A stretch of DNA of 23,733 nucleotides from IMG/VR virus record IMGVR_UViG_3300030099_004557, positions 1 through 23,733 of that record, one strand, 5' to 3'. Positions 504-6,332 of the stretch are shown one piece after another. The translations under genes and the position numbers were made by a program. Numbering within the stretch: the first letter of the stretch is position 1; the number at the start of each line of letters is the position of its first letter. The stretch is from a virus. The notes beneath the pieces were generated by a model. That model was not told the origin of the DNA. It saw nothing but the letters and a program-made list of their open reading frames with translations, and did no database searches.

Positions 504-700
504 CCACTTTTTTTATATTCAGACCACATTTTATCTCGGCGCGATATTGCCATAGAAATCATGTAATGTAGCCTAGCCCAATCGGGATTTTTAGATAAAA
601 TCCTCTCTGCAATCTCGCCTGGTTGCGGAAAACCTTCGGGCGTATATTCTAGTGGGACTTTTTCGCATGCTCCACATATGTCGTGATGCGTTTTACTCAT
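500..700 (-). CDS. Small hypothetical protein coupled to uvsX
   Basis: A 66-residue protein that I do not recognise. Its ATG (700-698) overlaps the uvsX stop codon in an ATGA arrangement, the usual sign of translational coupling, and no independent strong Shine-Dalgarno site is visible. It has a CGAC pair of cysteines near residues 9-12, a Pro/Gly-rich stretch (PEGFPQPGE) near 21-29, and a helical, charged C-terminal half with DWARLHYMISMAISRRDKMW near 40-59. There is no signal peptide or membrane segment. A single CxxC is too little to call a zinc site unless the protein dimerises. The stop codon lies inside the next gene's promoter. Position suggests a recombination or repair accessory protein, but that is inference only. 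Confidence 0.6.
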   Translation of the reverse strand: MSKTHHDICGACEKVPLEYTPEGFPQPGEIAERILSKNPDWARLHYMISMAISRRDKMWSEYKKSG

Positions 701-1845
701 TCTTTAACAGGCACAGTAAGATCGTCTTGATCTTCGTAATATGCGCTAGCATCACCCTCTCGTTTATCAAACTTCTGAACAATTTCTTCATCCATAATCT
801 GAATGACGCGGCTTCTGAACTCTTTGTCATTTGTTACCAGTTCGGTCCACTTGGATGGTTGAAACTTTTTTGTGTATCCATCTGTTGTGGATAGAGTATA
901 CCATGCGCCGGCAGATGTTAGACTCTCGGATCCTTTAATTGCATCAAACCAAGACTCTTCATCTCGAATACCAATTTCATTAGTTCCCCATAGAATGCGG
1001 AACGCACATGAGCGACCTTGTGAACCAAAGCGTGATTTCTCCAGCTTTATCTTAACCTCCGAGCCAATTCGAAAGCCCTTTTCATCTTCAATAAATGAAG
1101 ACTTTGCTTTCCGACCAGTGAGCCAGATACGCAACGAATATGCGTAATGCATTGCCTTGCCGCCGGGCGTCATGTAAGGAGTTGTCATAGCAACAATTCG
1201 TGCATTTGGGCCTTGTGGAATATTTGTCTTTAACTGGTTAAGAACAATAAACGTAGCTTGCTTGTCTGCCAGTGGAATAGTCAGCTTCGACATTCCTTTA
1301 GCCAAGATACGTGCTTTAACAGCCATTGACGATTGTGGGTTGAAGTCACCTTCAACGTCAGAGATTGATGGTGTAAATGCCAGTGAATCCCAGATAAGGA
1401 CAAGCTTTTCATCAGTAGCCCCAAGAAGTTCTTCGATAGTCTCTAGAACAAACTCGACAGAGGATGCTTGAACATACATTAAACGGTTCAAATCGCACCC
1501 AGAGCGCTCCAAAAAAGTTGGGTCGATTGCTGACTCGGAATCAAAATATACAACCAATTTACCTTGTTTCTGAGCGTTTGCTGCAATCTGTGCAGCCATG
1601 TAAGATTTGCCTGTTGCTTCTAGTCCAGCAATCTCAGTAACCTTGCCGACTGGAATGCCTGCAACTTGGCCTTTGCAGATGATTGAATCAAGCCACCGAG
1701 AGCCTGTAGGAATCCATTCCTTGACAGAAGTTGGGTTGTCGCCTGTTAGATCGTGTGCAACATTGCGACCAGCCTTCTTGTTCACTAATTTCATCAGATC
1801 TTGCATATCAACACGACCTGCCTTTGGTTTTGCTTTTTTGGCCAT
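697..1845 (-). CDS. uvsX: UvsX/RecA-type recombinase
   Basis: A strand-exchange recombinase that coats single-stranded DNA and pairs it with duplex DNA for phage recombination, repair and recombination-dependent replication. At 382 residues it is close to the usual length (T4 UvsX about 390). The Walker A loop GLEATGKS lies at 74-81, a YFDSE strand with the catalytic Glu at about 100-104, and Walker B LVLIWDS at 148-154. Later come the IVLNQLK strand and the GGKAMHYAYSLRIWL block, equivalent to the RecA GGNALKFYAS segment. The C-terminus is acidic, as in RecA proteins. The ATG at 1845 is preceded by GGAGGG. The leader directly upstream is an intrinsic-terminator-like hairpin (1861-1893) whose U-tract runs almost into the Shine-Dalgarno site, so expression may depend on readthrough. 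It acts with gp32, encoded two genes upstream. Confidence 0.93.
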   Translation of the reverse strand: MAKKAKPKAGRVDMQDLMKLVNKKAGRNVAHDLTGDNPTSVKEWIPTGSRWLDSIICKGQVAGIPVGKVTEIAGLEATGKSYMAAQIAANAQKQGKLVVYFDSESAIDPTFLERSGCDLNRLMYVQASSVEFVLETIEELLGATDEKLVLIWDSLAFTPSISDVEGDFNPQSSMAVKARILAKGMSKLTIPLADKQATFIVLNQLKTNIPQGPNARIVAMTTPYMTPGGKAMHYAYSLRIWLTGRKAKSSFIEDEKGFRIGSEVKIKLEKSRFGSQGRSCAFRILWGTNEIGIRDEESWFDAIKGSESLTSAGAWYTLSTTDGYTKKFQPSKWTELVTNDKEFRSRVIQIMDEEIVQKFDKREGDASAYYEDQDDLTVPVKE

Positions 1846-1905: not shown

Positions 1906-2142
1906 TTATTCTGTTGCGGTTGTTTCAGTAGTCTCGGTAGTCTCAGTTTCAGTAGTAGTCTCATCAACTGCTTCGACCGTTTCGGTTGTTACGGTTCCAG
2001 AAACAGGAACAACTTCAGCCTCTGAAACCGTTTGCGGGTCAAAAGAGCATGTCCCATATGCGGTCGCAACAACAAGTGTTCCTCCCACCACAGCTACCCT
2101 AACTCTCCAACTGGCCCAAGCGGCCTTTAACCAATCTAACAT
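1906..2142 (-). CDS. Small membrane-anchored Thr/Glu-rich protein
   Basis: A 78-residue protein with no family I recognise. It has a short N-terminal amphipathic stretch rich in Trp (MLDWLKAAWASWRVR), then one hydrophobic segment at about 16-30 (VAVVGGTLVVATAYG), a Cys at 32, and a tail of about 40 residues made almost only of Thr, Glu, Val and Ser that ends in repeated TET units. The start is well supported by AAGGAGATATA upstream of the ATG at 2142. The layout suggests a single-pass inner-membrane protein with an acidic, disordered tail outside or inside the membrane. The Cys might be a lipobox remnant (YGTC), but the residues before it do not fit well. The gene sits alone between two related terminator hairpins, like an independent cassette between gp32 and uvsX. 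A host-membrane or exclusion function is possible but unsupported. Confidence 0.72.
   Translation of the reverse strand: MLDWLKAAWASWRVRVAVVGGTLVVATAYGTCSFDPQTVSEAEVVPVSGTVTTETVEAVDETTTETETTETTETTATE
1909..1990 (-). repeat. Degenerate ACT/GAG codon repeats encoding the Thr/Glu tail
   Basis: The 3' end of the 1906-2142 gene is built of short degenerate tandem units (plus-strand variants of tcagtagtc and tcggtagtc) that encode repeated Thr-Glu-Thr. This reads as slippage-type expansion of a disordered tail rather than a separate element. Length variation between related phages would be expected here. Confidence 0.55.
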
Positions 2143-2224: not shown

Positions 2225-2995
2225 TTAGCCAGACATCAATTCATCAAATGCTCGGTCAACACTACTCTTACCGTTGGAGGGACCGTATTTGGCTGTTTCA
2301 GACGAGCGACCTTCTGCAGACGTATCACCAGAAAGTTGCTCATCTAAGATGGCATCGACTTGTTGGGTGCTAAGACGTTCAAAAAGTCCGTCAAAGTCGG
2401 GCATGCGATCAAGGAGGGCGGGGATCGCTTCTGCATCTTCCAACAAGGTGGATGTGTTTCGACGCATCTTTAGACTCGTTTGTGGATATGCACCAGGCTT
2501 ATTAGGCTTGGTGTAGGTAAGGGTGATATCGGTCCCCTCCTTGGAGTCTGTGATATCACCATATTCTGGATCGAGAATATATCCAAGAAGAAGCTCATAG
2601 GCCTGTTTACCGTAGCCGTAAACCTTGATTCCTTCATCTTCTCGACCTCGAACAACGACTGGAGAGAAGTAGCGGGTTCGCACAAAGAGGCTCTTTGCAA
2701 GCTTCTTACTTTCCTCATCGTTGTTGTCAACTCCCTCGCGCCAAAGCTTGGAAGCGAATTCGCAAATTGGGCACTCGTCACCGAAGTTCCGCTTCGGGCA
2801 CATGATGCCTCCCTTGTGATCTCCAACATTATAGTGGAAGAACATTTCCTTCAAGGGGTCGCCATCGTTGGTCGGCACAATACGAATATCAGTGTCGCCC
2901 TCATCTGGCTTGAACCAAACAGACGTGCTGTCTTTCGTTCCCTCGCCACGAAGTGCGGCAAGTTTTTTTCTCATTAGTTCCATATTAATTGACAT
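2225..2995 (-). CDS. gp32: gp32-like single-stranded DNA binding protein
   Basis: The phage single-stranded DNA binding protein, which coats template and recombination intermediates and works with the polymerase and UvsX. At 256 residues it is a little shorter than T4 gp32 (301). The N-terminus (MELMRKKLAAL) resembles the basic segment used for cooperative self-interaction. A zinc site is visible as His60, Cys66, Cys75 and Cys78, equivalent in order to the T4 His-Cys-Cys-Cys set but more tightly spaced. The OB-fold region is rich in aromatics (FFHYN, TRYFSPVVV, VYGYGK). The C-terminus is not the strongly acidic tail of T4; it ends in a Ser-rich linker and FDELMSG. AGGAG lies nine bases before the ATG at 2995. 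The leader holds a hairpin followed by A/U-rich RNA (3028-3042 onward), which could allow self-repression as in T4. Confidence 0.85.
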   Translation of the reverse strand: MSINMELMRKKLAALRGEGTKDSTSVWFKPDEGDTDIRIVPTNDGDPLKEMFFHYNVGDHKGGIMCPKRNFGDECPICEFASKLWREGVDNNDEESKKLAKSLFVRTRYFSPVVVRGREDEGIKVYGYGKQAYELLLGYILDPEYGDITDSKEGTDITLTYTKPNKPGAYPQTSLKMRRNTSTLLEDAEAIPALLDRMPDFDGLFERLSTQQVDAILDEQLSGDTSAEGRSSETAKYGPSNGKSSVDRAFDELMSG

Positions 2996-3053: not shown

Positions 3054-3920
3054 TCACTCTTGCTCTAGCTTGTCAAGAGTTTTTTGGTTTTTTTGAACTA
3101 CGTTAGTATGGGCAACGCAGAACCCAAAATCGTTATAAGGTGTTTCATAGATTGCATATGACAGCTTTCGATAAGCATTGCGAGGCTTGTCTTTCAACAT
3201 TCCAACAATTCGTCTATGCAGCCCTCCCTCGGTTTCTAATCTTTCGTTATTGATAGCTAAATAATAACACAGTTCTCTCGGGCTGTCAAGGTCAAAAAGC
3301 CACATTTCTTCAAGATTTTTAACATTAAGACCTGCGATGGAGCGAATCCTGTTTATTTCCGCGGGCTTAGCGACTTGACCAATTTCTGGCTCAGAGTGTG
3401 CAAAATAATTAAGGTGGTGAATTGTTGAGAAGATAAAGTTATTCATGCTGTCATAGTAGCTTTTAATTGGCAAATCTCCCATCGATGCTTCGATATTTAA
3501 ATTTGAGATAAGTGTGATTGAGTTAAGAAGTCCAGAGCGAGAGTATTCTTGCAAAACGCCAAATACAGTGTTTTCAATTAATACAGGAAACCCGGTTAAC
3601 AACTCAGTGTCAGGCTTAATATAAATAACGTCAACTTTCTTTTTATGAAGCTGTTGCAAAACACCCAAAGAGTAATTAGAGCTATATGAACCACCAACAA
3701 TAATAAACTGTATATGATCGTCAACTTCAGAAAAGAATTTTTTTAAATCTGGTATATTTTGCTCATACTCTTCTGGGTGCTCAAAAGACTTTAATTTGAA
3801 GTTCTTTTTCGAGTTTCGCTTAACACTACTGTTAAGTTTATACACATTATACTGTGGTGTAGAGGCAAAGCATTCCGCAATTGAGCTTGCGGCGTTACCA
3901 AGTCCAATAATCGAAATCAT
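3054..3920 (-). CDS. Putative divergent FtsZ/tubulin-like protein
   Basis: A 288-residue protein with no obvious close family. Its layout matches FtsZ/tubulin by eye. A first strand and glycine loop IIGLGNAASSI lies at 4-14 (compare FtsZ VIGVGGGGGNA). A strand plus Gly-rich loop IIVGGSYSSNYSLG is at 73-86, where FtsZ has its GGGTGTG loop, and a next strand VDVIYIKP at 96-103 matches FtsZ LTVAVVTKP. Long central helices at about 113-170 follow, with a C-terminal strand pair YAIYET and FGFCVAHT at about 255-271. The GGGTGTG motif is degraded and I cannot find the NxDxxD/E catalytic loop, so GTPase activity is doubtful. The alternative is a Rossmann NAD(P)-binding protein, given GLGNAA at the N-terminus. 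Its ATG overlaps the polymerase stop codon (ATGA), so the two are translationally coupled. Fold call is inference from pattern. Confidence 0.45.
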   Translation of the reverse strand: MISIIGLGNAASSIAECFASTPQYNVYKLNSSVKRNSKKNFKLKSFEHPEEYEQNIPDLKKFFSEVDDHIQFIIVGGSYSSNYSLGVLQQLHKKKVDVIYIKPDTELLTGFPVLIENTVFGVLQEYSRSGLLNSITLISNLNIEASMGDLPIKSYYDSMNNFIFSTIHHLNYFAHSEPEIGQVAKPAEINRIRSIAGLNVKNLEEMWLFDLDSPRELCYYLAINNERLETEGGLHRRIVGMLKDKPRNAYRKLSYAIYETPYNDFGFCVAHTNVVQKNQKTLDKLEQE

Positions 3921-5089
3921 ATATCCAACTCATCAAGTGAAAATAAATCTTTACCACCACTCATGTTACACAAATATCCATCTTCAAATTCTGATTTTAT
4001 TTTTTGTATTAAATCTCTATCTTCATCACTATAGTCAATAACTAATTCGTCATGAATAATGAATGAAATAAAAGATTTACGACCCTCTAAGATTTTATCT
4101 ATTTTTACCGCTTTTTCAAGAACCCTATCAGCTGTTGTGCTTTGGATCAAGTAGTTTAAAGCTTTTCTTGGCTCTACCTTAATTTTTCTGTTGTATGGGG
4201 TATTAATATAGCCGTTTATATAATACTTGTCAAGAACTTTTTCCTTATCGTAGAAAGTAGTCTCAATATCATCTGATTCTGGATTGTATAACCAAGCAAA
4301 GAACCTGACCTTACATTCTTCTCGTGTAACTTCTTGTTCAAAGAGATGCAACGTGTTCCATTGGTGTATATCAATATCCGGCTGCGGTTCTCCACTCAGT
4401 TCAAGCAGCGTCCTAACTTCAGCACCGTTGTAATCTAAACTAATAAACAAATCATTAACTGGTTTAGCTATCTTTCTATATTCTTTTTTAACTGTCAATA
4501 TCGGGAAGCTTTCCTTGTTGGTGGTTAACCTTCCGGTCACGGTGCCAAACATATTATAATCAACAAAGCGGTAATTATTTACCAATTCTTGCAGCTTCAT
4601 TCTGTGGATGCTAGATGTCATGAGTTCTCGACAACCATCTACACTTAGGTTTAATTCTTGATATTTTATTTTTTGAAGCAGCTTTTGAACATTCTCTAAG
4701 TGTTGATAATTTTTAGGAATTTGGTAATTTTCAAAGACGTGTTCAGTAATTTTATTTTTTATTTCACAAAATTGAGCCAAAAAATCATGCGGAATCATAT
4801 CGAAAACACAATGGTCGTTCATATTTATTTTGGCAATCTTGAAAGACTTTATGTATGCTGTCATCTTTTTTTGTGCTGCCTCAAGCTCAGGCAAAAGTTC
4901 GTCAGGGCAGCATTCTGCTAAGTTTTTTCCTTCAGCAATAATACTGGCATATTTAATTTTTTCGTTGCTTACTGAACCTGAATATTTCCAAGTTTTAGTA
5001 AGGTTTGTCGGTATATTATCAAAGTGCATTTTACCATCTACATAAACCCCAATGCACTCTGTTTTATCATCAATAGTTTGAAAAATCAC
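3917..5089 (-). CDS. Family A DNA polymerase, polymerase domain only
   Basis: A short DNA polymerase of the PolA family, about 390 residues from a GTG start at 5089. Motifs in that numbering: TGRLTT 185-190; motif A LDYNGAEVR with Asp219 and Glu224; motif B Arg256, Lys260, Phe264 and Tyr268 in the R-x3-K-x3-F-x3-Y spacing of the O-helix; IQSTTAD at 315-321; and motif C IIHDELV with His346, Asp347 and Glu348. All catalytic residues are present. There is no room for the 3'-5' exonuclease or 5' nuclease domains, so proofreading must come from elsewhere, as in Rhodothermus phage RM378 where polymerase and exonuclease are separate genes. The GTG start overlaps the upstream gene by 20 bases. The frame stays open to an upstream start at 5164, but that would overlap by 95 bases; Met46 of the longer frame (5029) is the other option, without a Shine-Dalgarno site. 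Confidence 0.9.
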   Translation of the reverse strand: MIFQTIDDKTECIGVYVDGKMHFDNIPTNLTKTWKYSGSVSNEKIKYASIIAEGKNLAECCPDELLPELEAAQKKMTAYIKSFKIAKINMNDHCVFDMIPHDFLAQFCEIKNKITEHVFENYQIPKNYQHLENVQKLLQKIKYQELNLSVDGCRELMTSSIHRMKLQELVNNYRFVDYNMFGTVTGRLTTNKESFPILTVKKEYRKIAKPVNDLFISLDYNGAEVRTLLELSGEPQPDIDIHQWNTLHLFEQEVTREECKVRFFAWLYNPESDDIETTFYDKEKVLDKYYINGYINTPYNRKIKVEPRKALNYLIQSTTADRVLEKAVKIDKILEGRKSFISFIIHDELVIDYSDEDRDLIQKIKSEFEDGYLCNMSGGKDLFSLDELDI

Positions 5090-6332
5090 TGTTATCGTCC
5101 GTAATAATAATGTTCTCGACTGTTCCTTCTTCAAAGGCCGCCGCCATTTTTGCCCTATCTGCATTAACAGTATATGTCAATGAACCTCGTTTGTCAAATG
5201 TTTTATTGATAATACTTTCGAATTTTTCATTAATAGAATTTGTTGCGCCGGTTGAATTAAAAATTCTGTTTTGTTCTTTTATAATGTTGCTGACCTCGTG
5301 TTCTGGCATCATTGGTTGTTCTTCATATATTCTAATTTTGAGATACAAGTCTACAAAATAACTTGCAGGATATCTTTCAAAAAAATCAGACGGATTATAG
5401 TTTTGCGTTTTAATAGTCATTCTTTTAGTGCTACCGTCATCACAATTTACGGTTTTGTGATATTTTTGTGGTCTAATGTTGTTATATAGATCCAATAACA
5501 TTTTTCCTAATTCTTGCAGCCCTTTTATTGACGCATATGAATATTGTTGCCCTAATATCTGTTCAACATTATTTAATCCATATCTTTTCGCCACCTCGAT
5601 GCAATGCTCAGCGCCAATATCAGCCACGATTCTCCACGGACAGTTATAGTCTATCATAAACCCATAAGAATCACAAGCGTTAACAAAAAACCTCCAATTT
5701 TTACTTTTTACAAAATTATTAATCTTGTCTAAATCATTGTCATAGCTAAGATTTGCAATCTCTATAGCCAAGCCGGTATTTAGAACATTACAATTATTGC
5801 TCTTAATGTAGCCAGTATATGTTAAAGGTTGTTTTGCGGCAGATATTTTGATTATTGGCATCAGCAAATTGATGAACTCATCAAAATCTTTAAATCTAAT
5901 TAGATTTTTTTTGAAATGATTTTTAAGCGCGTTAAAATATACAAGCTTGTATGTCTCATATTGCGCTTCTGGGTCCACATATGCTTTATATGCTTTTAAT
6001 CTAGATAAAAATGGGTCGTTAGCGTCTATTTTTCCCGTTGTCGAGCACTTATCAAACTGCAAAACCATTTCGTTAAACAAATCAGCGACGAAATTTACAG
6101 CTTTTACCGGCTTGAGAGAGTCGGCGGATACGCCCACGTATTTTAACGACGAGTTGGAAACAGTGATCGGCACAAAACGTCGATCCATTCGACCAAACAA
6201 TATCTTTTCTCCATCTAAAAACGAAACAACGTTTTTAAATCTTGAGCCATGAACTAAGTTTTTATACAGTAATCTTTTGTTAAATAAATTTTTTGATGAT
6301 CCTCTGTTTGATTTAGTAAAGTATTTTGACAT
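5070..6332 (-). CDS. Unrecognised 420-residue protein upstream of the polymerase
   Basis: I do not recognise this protein. It is mostly helical, Lys/Asn/Tyr-rich and soluble in appearance, with no signal peptide, membrane segment or enzyme motif that I can name. Noticeable blocks are FVPITVSNSSLKYVGVSADS near 53-72, DPFLSRLKAYKAYVDPEAQY near 105-124, and FFVNACDSYGFMIDYNCPWR near 214-233, the last looking like a conserved core. The acidic C-terminus (TDDNSDFSNY) overlaps the polymerase start. AGGAT precedes the ATG at 6332, and the gap to the hub-like gene is only 11 bases. It is AT-rich like its neighbours. It could be a virion component, because it follows the baseplate genes, or a replication protein, because it overlaps the polymerase. 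It lacks the DEDD-type exonuclease motifs, so it is probably not the missing proofreading subunit. Confidence 0.85.
   Translation of the reverse strand: MSKYFTKSNRGSSKNLFNKRLLYKNLVHGSRFKNVVSFLDGEKILFGRMDRRFVPITVSNSSLKYVGVSADSLKPVKAVNFVADLFNEMVLQFDKCSTTGKIDANDPFLSRLKAYKAYVDPEAQYETYKLVYFNALKNHFKKNLIRFKDFDEFINLLMPIIKISAAKQPLTYTGYIKSNNCNVLNTGLAIEIANLSYDNDLDKINNFVKSKNWRFFVNACDSYGFMIDYNCPWRIVADIGAEHCIEVAKRYGLNNVEQILGQQYSYASIKGLQELGKMLLDLYNNIRPQKYHKTVNCDDGSTKRMTIKTQNYNPSDFFERYPASYFVDLYLKIRIYEEQPMMPEHEVSNIIKEQNRIFNSTGATNSINEKFESIINKTFDKRGSLTYTVNADRAKMAAAFEEGTVENIIITDDNSDFSNY

Follow-up and report, generated by a model that had tools for sequence, protein, structure and literature searches.

The question raised by this locus is whether a 288-residue protein, encoded directly after the DNA polymerase gene of an uncultured virus, belongs to the FtsZ/tubulin superfamily and, if so, what its place among the replication genes implies for its function. 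Among phage tubulins, PhuZ of jumbo phages is the best known and is an active GTPase. PhuZ has been linked to the positioning of phage DNA (PMC4244570, PMC3678025). The window analysed here is the whole 23,733-nucleotide stretch of the IMG/VR virus record IMGVR_UViG_3300030099_004557, and the gene is designated tubL. A first-pass annotation, made by eye from the sequence, had proposed a divergent tubulin-fold protein, perhaps GTPase-dead and tied to replication, with a Rossmann protein as the main alternative; a structure prediction with a fold search, profile searches, and a survey of homologues for position beside the polymerase were suggested as checks. The genes concerned are arranged in the window as follows.

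697..1845, minus strand: UvsX/RecA-like recombinase of the replication block (PF00154, phrog_97)
2225..2995, minus strand: gp32-like single-strand DNA-binding protein, the next gene after tubL (PF08804, phrog_1192)
3054..3920, minus strand: tubL, a 288-aa protein of predicted tubulin fold, glycine-poor, probable pseudo-GTPase (ORF list, predicted structure, fold search, conservation)
3917..3920, minus strand: ATGA overlap of the polA stop TGA with the tubL start ATG, a translational coupling signal seen directly
3917..5089, minus strand: polA, a family-A DNA polymerase of about 390 aa, probable GTG start at 5089 (PF00476, E 2e-13)
5070..6332, minus strand: orf420, conserved and with no assigned function, directly upstream of polA with an overlap of about 20 nt (synteny)

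The open reading frame, previously listed as 3054-3920 and 288 residues with no strand given, is a real gene on the minus strand with an ATG start codon, as judged from its relatives—in 46 loci at 57-100% identity, with 466 recognized among profile-scan candidates—and from strong purifying selection (pS 0.66, pN 0.055 between the window and a second locus, L002). Within the group, members are 46-100% identical to the window copy, and carriers number hundreds of IMG/VR contigs. No relative was found by tblastn in isolate phages (50,697 phage records), and sequence homology to PhuZ was thus not detected; the weak hits obtained, such as one to gp264 of phage G (E 0.5, 29%), were at chance level. 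Searches of Pfam, PHROG, and PDB sequences with the protein and its alignment as queries returned nothing significant, and none of 28 tubL members matched PF00091 (Tubulin), even at E values up to 10.

The fold prediction gave a different picture. An AlphaFold2 model built from an alignment of tubL and 27 IMG/VR relatives reached a mean pLDDT of 79.7 and a pTM of 0.82, with four of the five models at a mean pLDDT of at least 72. The model comprises an N-terminal nucleotide domain, a long helix H7, and a C-terminal alpha/beta domain: strand S1 (residues 2-7), helix H1 (9-20), S2 (24-30), and S3 (40-42), then short helices; S4 (69-75), H4 (81-89), S5 (95-102), and a long helix (113-129); S6 (134-139), H6 (140-147), and the core helix H7 (152-175); and a C-terminal sheet (192-198, 215-224, 254-260, and 267-272) with a helix at 234-243. 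In a Foldseek search of the PDB, the best 50 of 582 matches (E ≤0.001) were all TubZ, FtsZ, or CetZ, at E values of about 1e-10 to 1e-9. VIA-align gave Z scores of 20.9 for CetZ, 19.8 for tubulin, 19.4 for TubZ, and 19.3 for FtsZ, all within about 1.6 of one another, with 255-268 residues aligned over residues 1-279. Among viral models, the eight significant matches in BFVD were phage FtsZ, PhuZ of Noxifer, other phage tubulins, or unnamed entries. The tubulin N- plus C-terminal arrangement is therefore present in the model—the opposite of what the first-pass annotation had named as refuting its claim—and tubL almost certainly has the tubulin fold, placing it, according to the model, in the FtsZ/tubulin structural superfamily. 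The profile searches, by contrast, did not bear the claim out at the sequence level: hhalign of tubL against tub2 (see below) or FtsZ gave weak local matches (E 0.04-0.08). Since there is no significant sequence-level link, homology to FtsZ and tub2 rests on the fold; on the model, the fold makes this a genuine family, one that routine annotation misses.

Whether such a protein could still hydrolyze GTP was judged from its nucleotide-pocket motifs, with conservation counted over 135 distinct tubL sequences.

3885..3905, minus strand: T1-like loop, residues 6-12, G-[IL]-G-x-[AG]-[AG]-x, at the first strand/helix turn in the nucleotide pocket (model, conservation)
3675..3695, minus strand: T4-equivalent loop, residues 76-82, GGSYSSN in the window, following strand S4 in the model and replacing GGGTGTG
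3501..3503, minus strand: Asn140, at the T6 position of the guanine-contact Asn of FtsZ/tubulin (weak hhalign and model secondary structure)
3441..3443, minus strand: Asn160 in core helix H7, at the position of the guanine-contact Asp/Asn of FtsZ/tubulin (conservation, weak hhalign)
3348..3395, minus strand: T7-equivalent loop, residues 176-191, lacking an invariant acid and helix H8 (model, composition)

Residues G6 and G8 of the T1-like loop, D104, N140, and N160 are 99-100% kept (N140 in 133 of the 135 sequences, D104 and N160 in all of them). In a local hhalign comparison with 27 Bacteroidota FtsZ sequences, residues 133-167 pair with the FtsZ T6-H7 region, and N140 and N160 land at or beside two guanine-contact residues; this mapping is tentative because the alignment is not significant (E 0.04). 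The T4-equivalent loop, for its part, has the family consensus G-[SAG]-S-x-S-[SA]-N, most commonly GSSFSAN or GSSYSSN, with a mean of 1.1 glycines per seven positions; the glycine-rich GGGTG(T/S)G loop is absent. Nor was an NxDxx(D/E) motif with H8 found in the T7 region: no acid is invariant across residues 174-191, with E at position 177 in 85/135 sequences and mainly T, S, or N in the rest, and no helix is predicted between the end of H7 (residue 175) and the start of S7 (residue 192). H9 would also be absent, because the stretch between S7 and S8 is too short for it, as judged from the known FtsZ/tubulin topology. Both loops had been described as not conserved, and the family-wide counts agree. 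The earlier "perhaps GTPase-dead" likewise agrees with the loss of the T4 and T7 loops and the absence of H8, and tubL is probably a hydrolysis-dead pseudo-GTPase because the glycine-rich T4 loop, the T7 acid, H8, and H9 appear to have been lost. The picture suggested by the model is one of a pocket retained in shape, with its chemistry lost.

Comparison with known systems sets tubL apart. It resembles PhuZ and phage TubZ (phiKZ-like Chimalliviridae jumbo phages) in being a phage-encoded tubulin-fold protein, and PhuZ models are among its best viral fold matches, but tubL is shorter (288 aa), lacks T4, T7, and H8, is coupled to polA, and occurs in ~195-kb T4-like phages. With CetZ, FtsZ, TubZ/RepX, and alpha/beta-tubulin it has the two-domain fold in common (Z 19-21), but at 7-15% identity, with degenerate phosphate-binding and catalytic loops and without H8 and H9. 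Given the results for T4, T7/H8, and profile similarity, tubL is not filed as FtsZ, TubZ, CetZ, or PhuZ. FtsZl1 and FtsZl2 have been described as highly diverged superfamily members without some standard elements (Makarova and Koonin 2010, PMC2875224). FtsZl1 retains T1/T4 without a recognizable T6-H7, whereas tubL shows the reverse, T6-H7 being apparently retained and T4/T7 lost; furthermore, the context of FtsZl1/FtsZl2 is cellular membrane remodelling (PMC2875224), and that of tubL is phage replication.

Association of tubL with the replication genes extends beyond the window. The polA/tubL junction reads gatatATGAttt, with the polymerase TGA inside the tubL start, confirming the ATG/stop overlap noted at first sight (ATGA at 3917-3920), and among distinct loci that include 600 nt of upstream sequence, the overlap is exactly 4 nt in 144/144. 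The homologue survey placed tubL between polA and gp32 throughout: the order orf420-polA-tubL-gp32-uvsX is constant wherever the contig reaches (104 loci, first two scans). The proposed tie to replication is thus supported by both the invariant gene order and the universal coupling. On this basis, tubL would be made together with the polymerase, and a replisome role is inferred from that coupling. Between gp32 and uvsX, many loci conserve a 78-aa protein (window 1906-2142) that has a single apparent membrane segment and a low-complexity tail rich in T and E.

The polymerase itself is a family-A enzyme (PF00476) rather than a family-B one of T4 type. A search of six contigs of 187-196 kb found no family-B polymerase; five of them contain one PF00476 family-A polymerase (two pieces, one frame), and in G011, the sixth, a sequence beside tubL matches the window PolA at 51% identity. 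Judged by sequence, this short PolA (about 390 aa) is the sole recognizable DNA polymerase in the large related T4-like contigs. The Pfam T4 sliding clamp was likewise not found in any of the six, although divergent clamps can be missed by such a search. Comparison of loci indicates that polA probably starts at the GTG at 5089 rather than at the ATG at 5164. The upstream orf420 has no Pfam or PHROG match; a programmed frameshift fusing it to polA was considered since the two frames overlap in different phases, and was rejected because most of the listed loci have an ordinary ATG, GTG, or TTG directly before the conserved IFQxIDDK start.

A Pfam Tubulin search of large tubL-bearing contigs revealed a second, intact-looking FtsZ-like gene, designated tub2, encoding 379 aa (378-383 aa across copies).

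L110, 9055-10194, minus strand: tub2
G001 C1, at 181522: tub2
L115, 3001-4137: tub2

In four genomes, tub2 passes the Pfam Tubulin cut-off (33.9-36.3 bits versus 33); it matches FtsZ among PDB sequences with an E value of 8e-12, and hhalign to FtsZ gives a probability of 97.8% over the full length. Its motifs are GVGGGGNKM in T1, AGGGGGTGSS in T4, and FDSKDL in the T7 region, the last aligning with the DFADV/DLKDA stretch of FtsZ, and ahead of these the N-terminus is extended by about 65 residues, a conserved and acidic stretch. Thus, tub2 has the features of an FtsZ-like GTPase and is predicted from its sequence to be intact; its AlphaFold2 model was poor (pLDDT 41.8). Copies are 84-99% identical to that in a 195,690-bp contig, placing tub2 among the most conserved proteins compared and making it far slower evolving than tubL. 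Its neighbors include a fused gp46/47-like nuclease, a primase, and a terminase, and no relatives were found in plasmids or isolate phages. In the vicinity of tub2, many small ORFs (L110, L111, L112, L113, and L114) begin with MKITKxxLKxIIKEEI or MKxxxENWRKxxxE, N-termini that resemble the capsid-targeting sequences of T4 internal head proteins, which the prohead protease cleaves.

Wherever a contig covers both expected positions, as ten do, tubL and tub2 are both present, on the same strand and with tubL 38.7-47.1 kb (about 40 kb) downstream of tub2. In one of these, G009 (IMGVR_UViG_3300025096_000001), the distance wraps the contig end (9,069 + 195,459 - 162,045 = 42.5 kb), and the spacing fits only when the 195-kb contig is treated as circular, which suggests that the genome, about 195 kb long, is circularly permuted. 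In an eleventh contig (G008), tub2 lies at the right distance but is truncated where the contig ends. Another nine contigs carry just one of the genes and stop short of where its partner would be expected (only narrowly in G016), so that no contig contradicts a constant pair. Such constancy indicates a stable clade genome, and not by itself a functional link; it may reflect mere common descent, because nearly every core gene would co-occur.

The clade consists of large, widespread, uncultured marine T4-like phages of ~195 kb, viruses of bacteria, just under the jumbo limit. The nearest isolates by terminase are Flavobacterium phage immuto (47%) and Microcystis phage Mel-JY01 (44%), neither of which has a Pfam Tubulin match anywhere in its genome. 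Both resemble the tubL phages in having a gp32-RecA/UvsX-helicase block, with a family-A polymerase at its head in immuto, but differ in the small proteins encoded upstream of gp32. Those in the immuto polA-gp32 gap and upstream of gp32 in Mel-JY01 were considered as tubL candidates and set aside as dissimilar by eye. A 15-kb contig with a tub2 copy (L275, PAAD01000063.1) is binned in a Flavobacteriaceae MAG; a host in the Bacteroidota is weakly hinted at. The tubL/tub2 gene pair was not found described in the literature, and the phage group carrying tubL seems to be undescribed.

Shown computationally are the tubulin fold of tubL, the loss of its motifs, its coupling to polA in every case, and its constant co-occurrence with tub2. 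The explanation that we tentatively prefer, with slightly less than even confidence, is that tubL is a pseudo-GTPase of tubulin fold serving as the replisome-linked component of a two-tubulin system with tub2. In this scheme, tubL would be translated from the polA message by way of ATGA stop-start coupling, giving a roughly polymerase-like, low copy number. It would keep a guanine nucleotide, bound without hydrolysis, or an empty pocket of the same shape, and would donate no catalytic T7/H8 to a neighboring subunit, making dynamic filaments of tubL alone unlikely. It would then work with the polymerase, gp32, and UvsX, binding PolA and/or tub2, and dock to the end or side of tub2 filaments, thereby anchoring or positioning replicating DNA; gamma-tubulin-like or inactive subunits have a somewhat similar anchoring role in other tubulin systems. 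Because filament formers are normally abundant and have intact T4/T7, tub2 appears to be the better filament candidate, and tubL an anchor, a cap, or a polymerase partner. The distance of 40 kb between the genes counts against a partnership, and the more specific proposal that a hydrolysis-dead tubulin, as a replisome subunit, physically couples the viral DNA polymerase to active FtsZ-like filaments is rather unlikely.

Chief among the rival readings, though somewhat unlikely, is that tubL has no filament role and acts as an accessory factor of the polymerase—a tubulin fold recruited as a nucleotide sensor or a processivity (clamp-like) partner, with no link to tub2. In its favor are the invariable ATGA coupling, a polymerase of just about 390 aa, the missing Pfam T4-clamp domain in the six large contigs, and the loss from tubL of T7/H8, which in FtsZ/tubulin are parts of the longitudinal filament contact. 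The clamp search, however, can overlook divergent clamps, an FtsZ-like tub2 in the same genomes makes a role in a tubulin system more economical, and the two isolates with related terminases and gp32 have no Pfam-recognizable tubulin. Self-polymerization of tubL into static or nucleotide-free filaments that center phage DNA in a PhuZ-like manner, independently of tub2, would suit the complete two-domain fold of the model and the observation that superfamily members characterized by 2010 formed filaments (PMC2875224). It is improbable, as elements central to nucleotide-driven longitudinal assembly (T4, T7, H8, and H9) are missing or degenerate, coupling to polA implies a low copy number, and tub2, slow evolving and with intact loops, seems to be the one that forms filaments.

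The constant pairing of a degenerate with an intact subunit could also mean that tubL and tub2 alternate in a single heteropolymer, like alpha/beta-tubulin or BtubA/B, yet genes 40 kb apart in different blocks have no built-in equimolar expression, tub2 evolves far more slowly than tubL, and H8 is absent from tubL, leaving this reading very improbable. Least credible of all, and hardly worth entertaining, is an ordinary Rossmann dinucleotide-binding or other alpha/beta protein. Some tubL members do have weak, non-significant Pfam matches to GARS_N, F420_oxidored, and ApbA (best E 0.0045), presumably owing to the GxGxxG-like start, but no Rossmann enzyme is among the best 50 PDB matches, and the similarity to the tubulin superfamily (Z 19-21) runs over the whole chain, including H7 and the C-terminal domain. 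Structure comparison thus refutes what had been put forward as the main alternative, unless the model is wrong.

Overall, one large uncultured marine clade encodes two tubulin-superfamily proteins, one of them, tubL, locked to the DNA polymerase gene; what is new here is the second, intact-looking tub2 in the same ~195-kb genomes. TubL adds to the set of degenerate tubulins, and the hundreds of related sequences make the proposed link testable at once. Together, tubL and tub2 suggest a two-part skeleton system tied to the copying of viral DNA, which, if true, would directly connect a tubulin-like skeleton with a replication machine.
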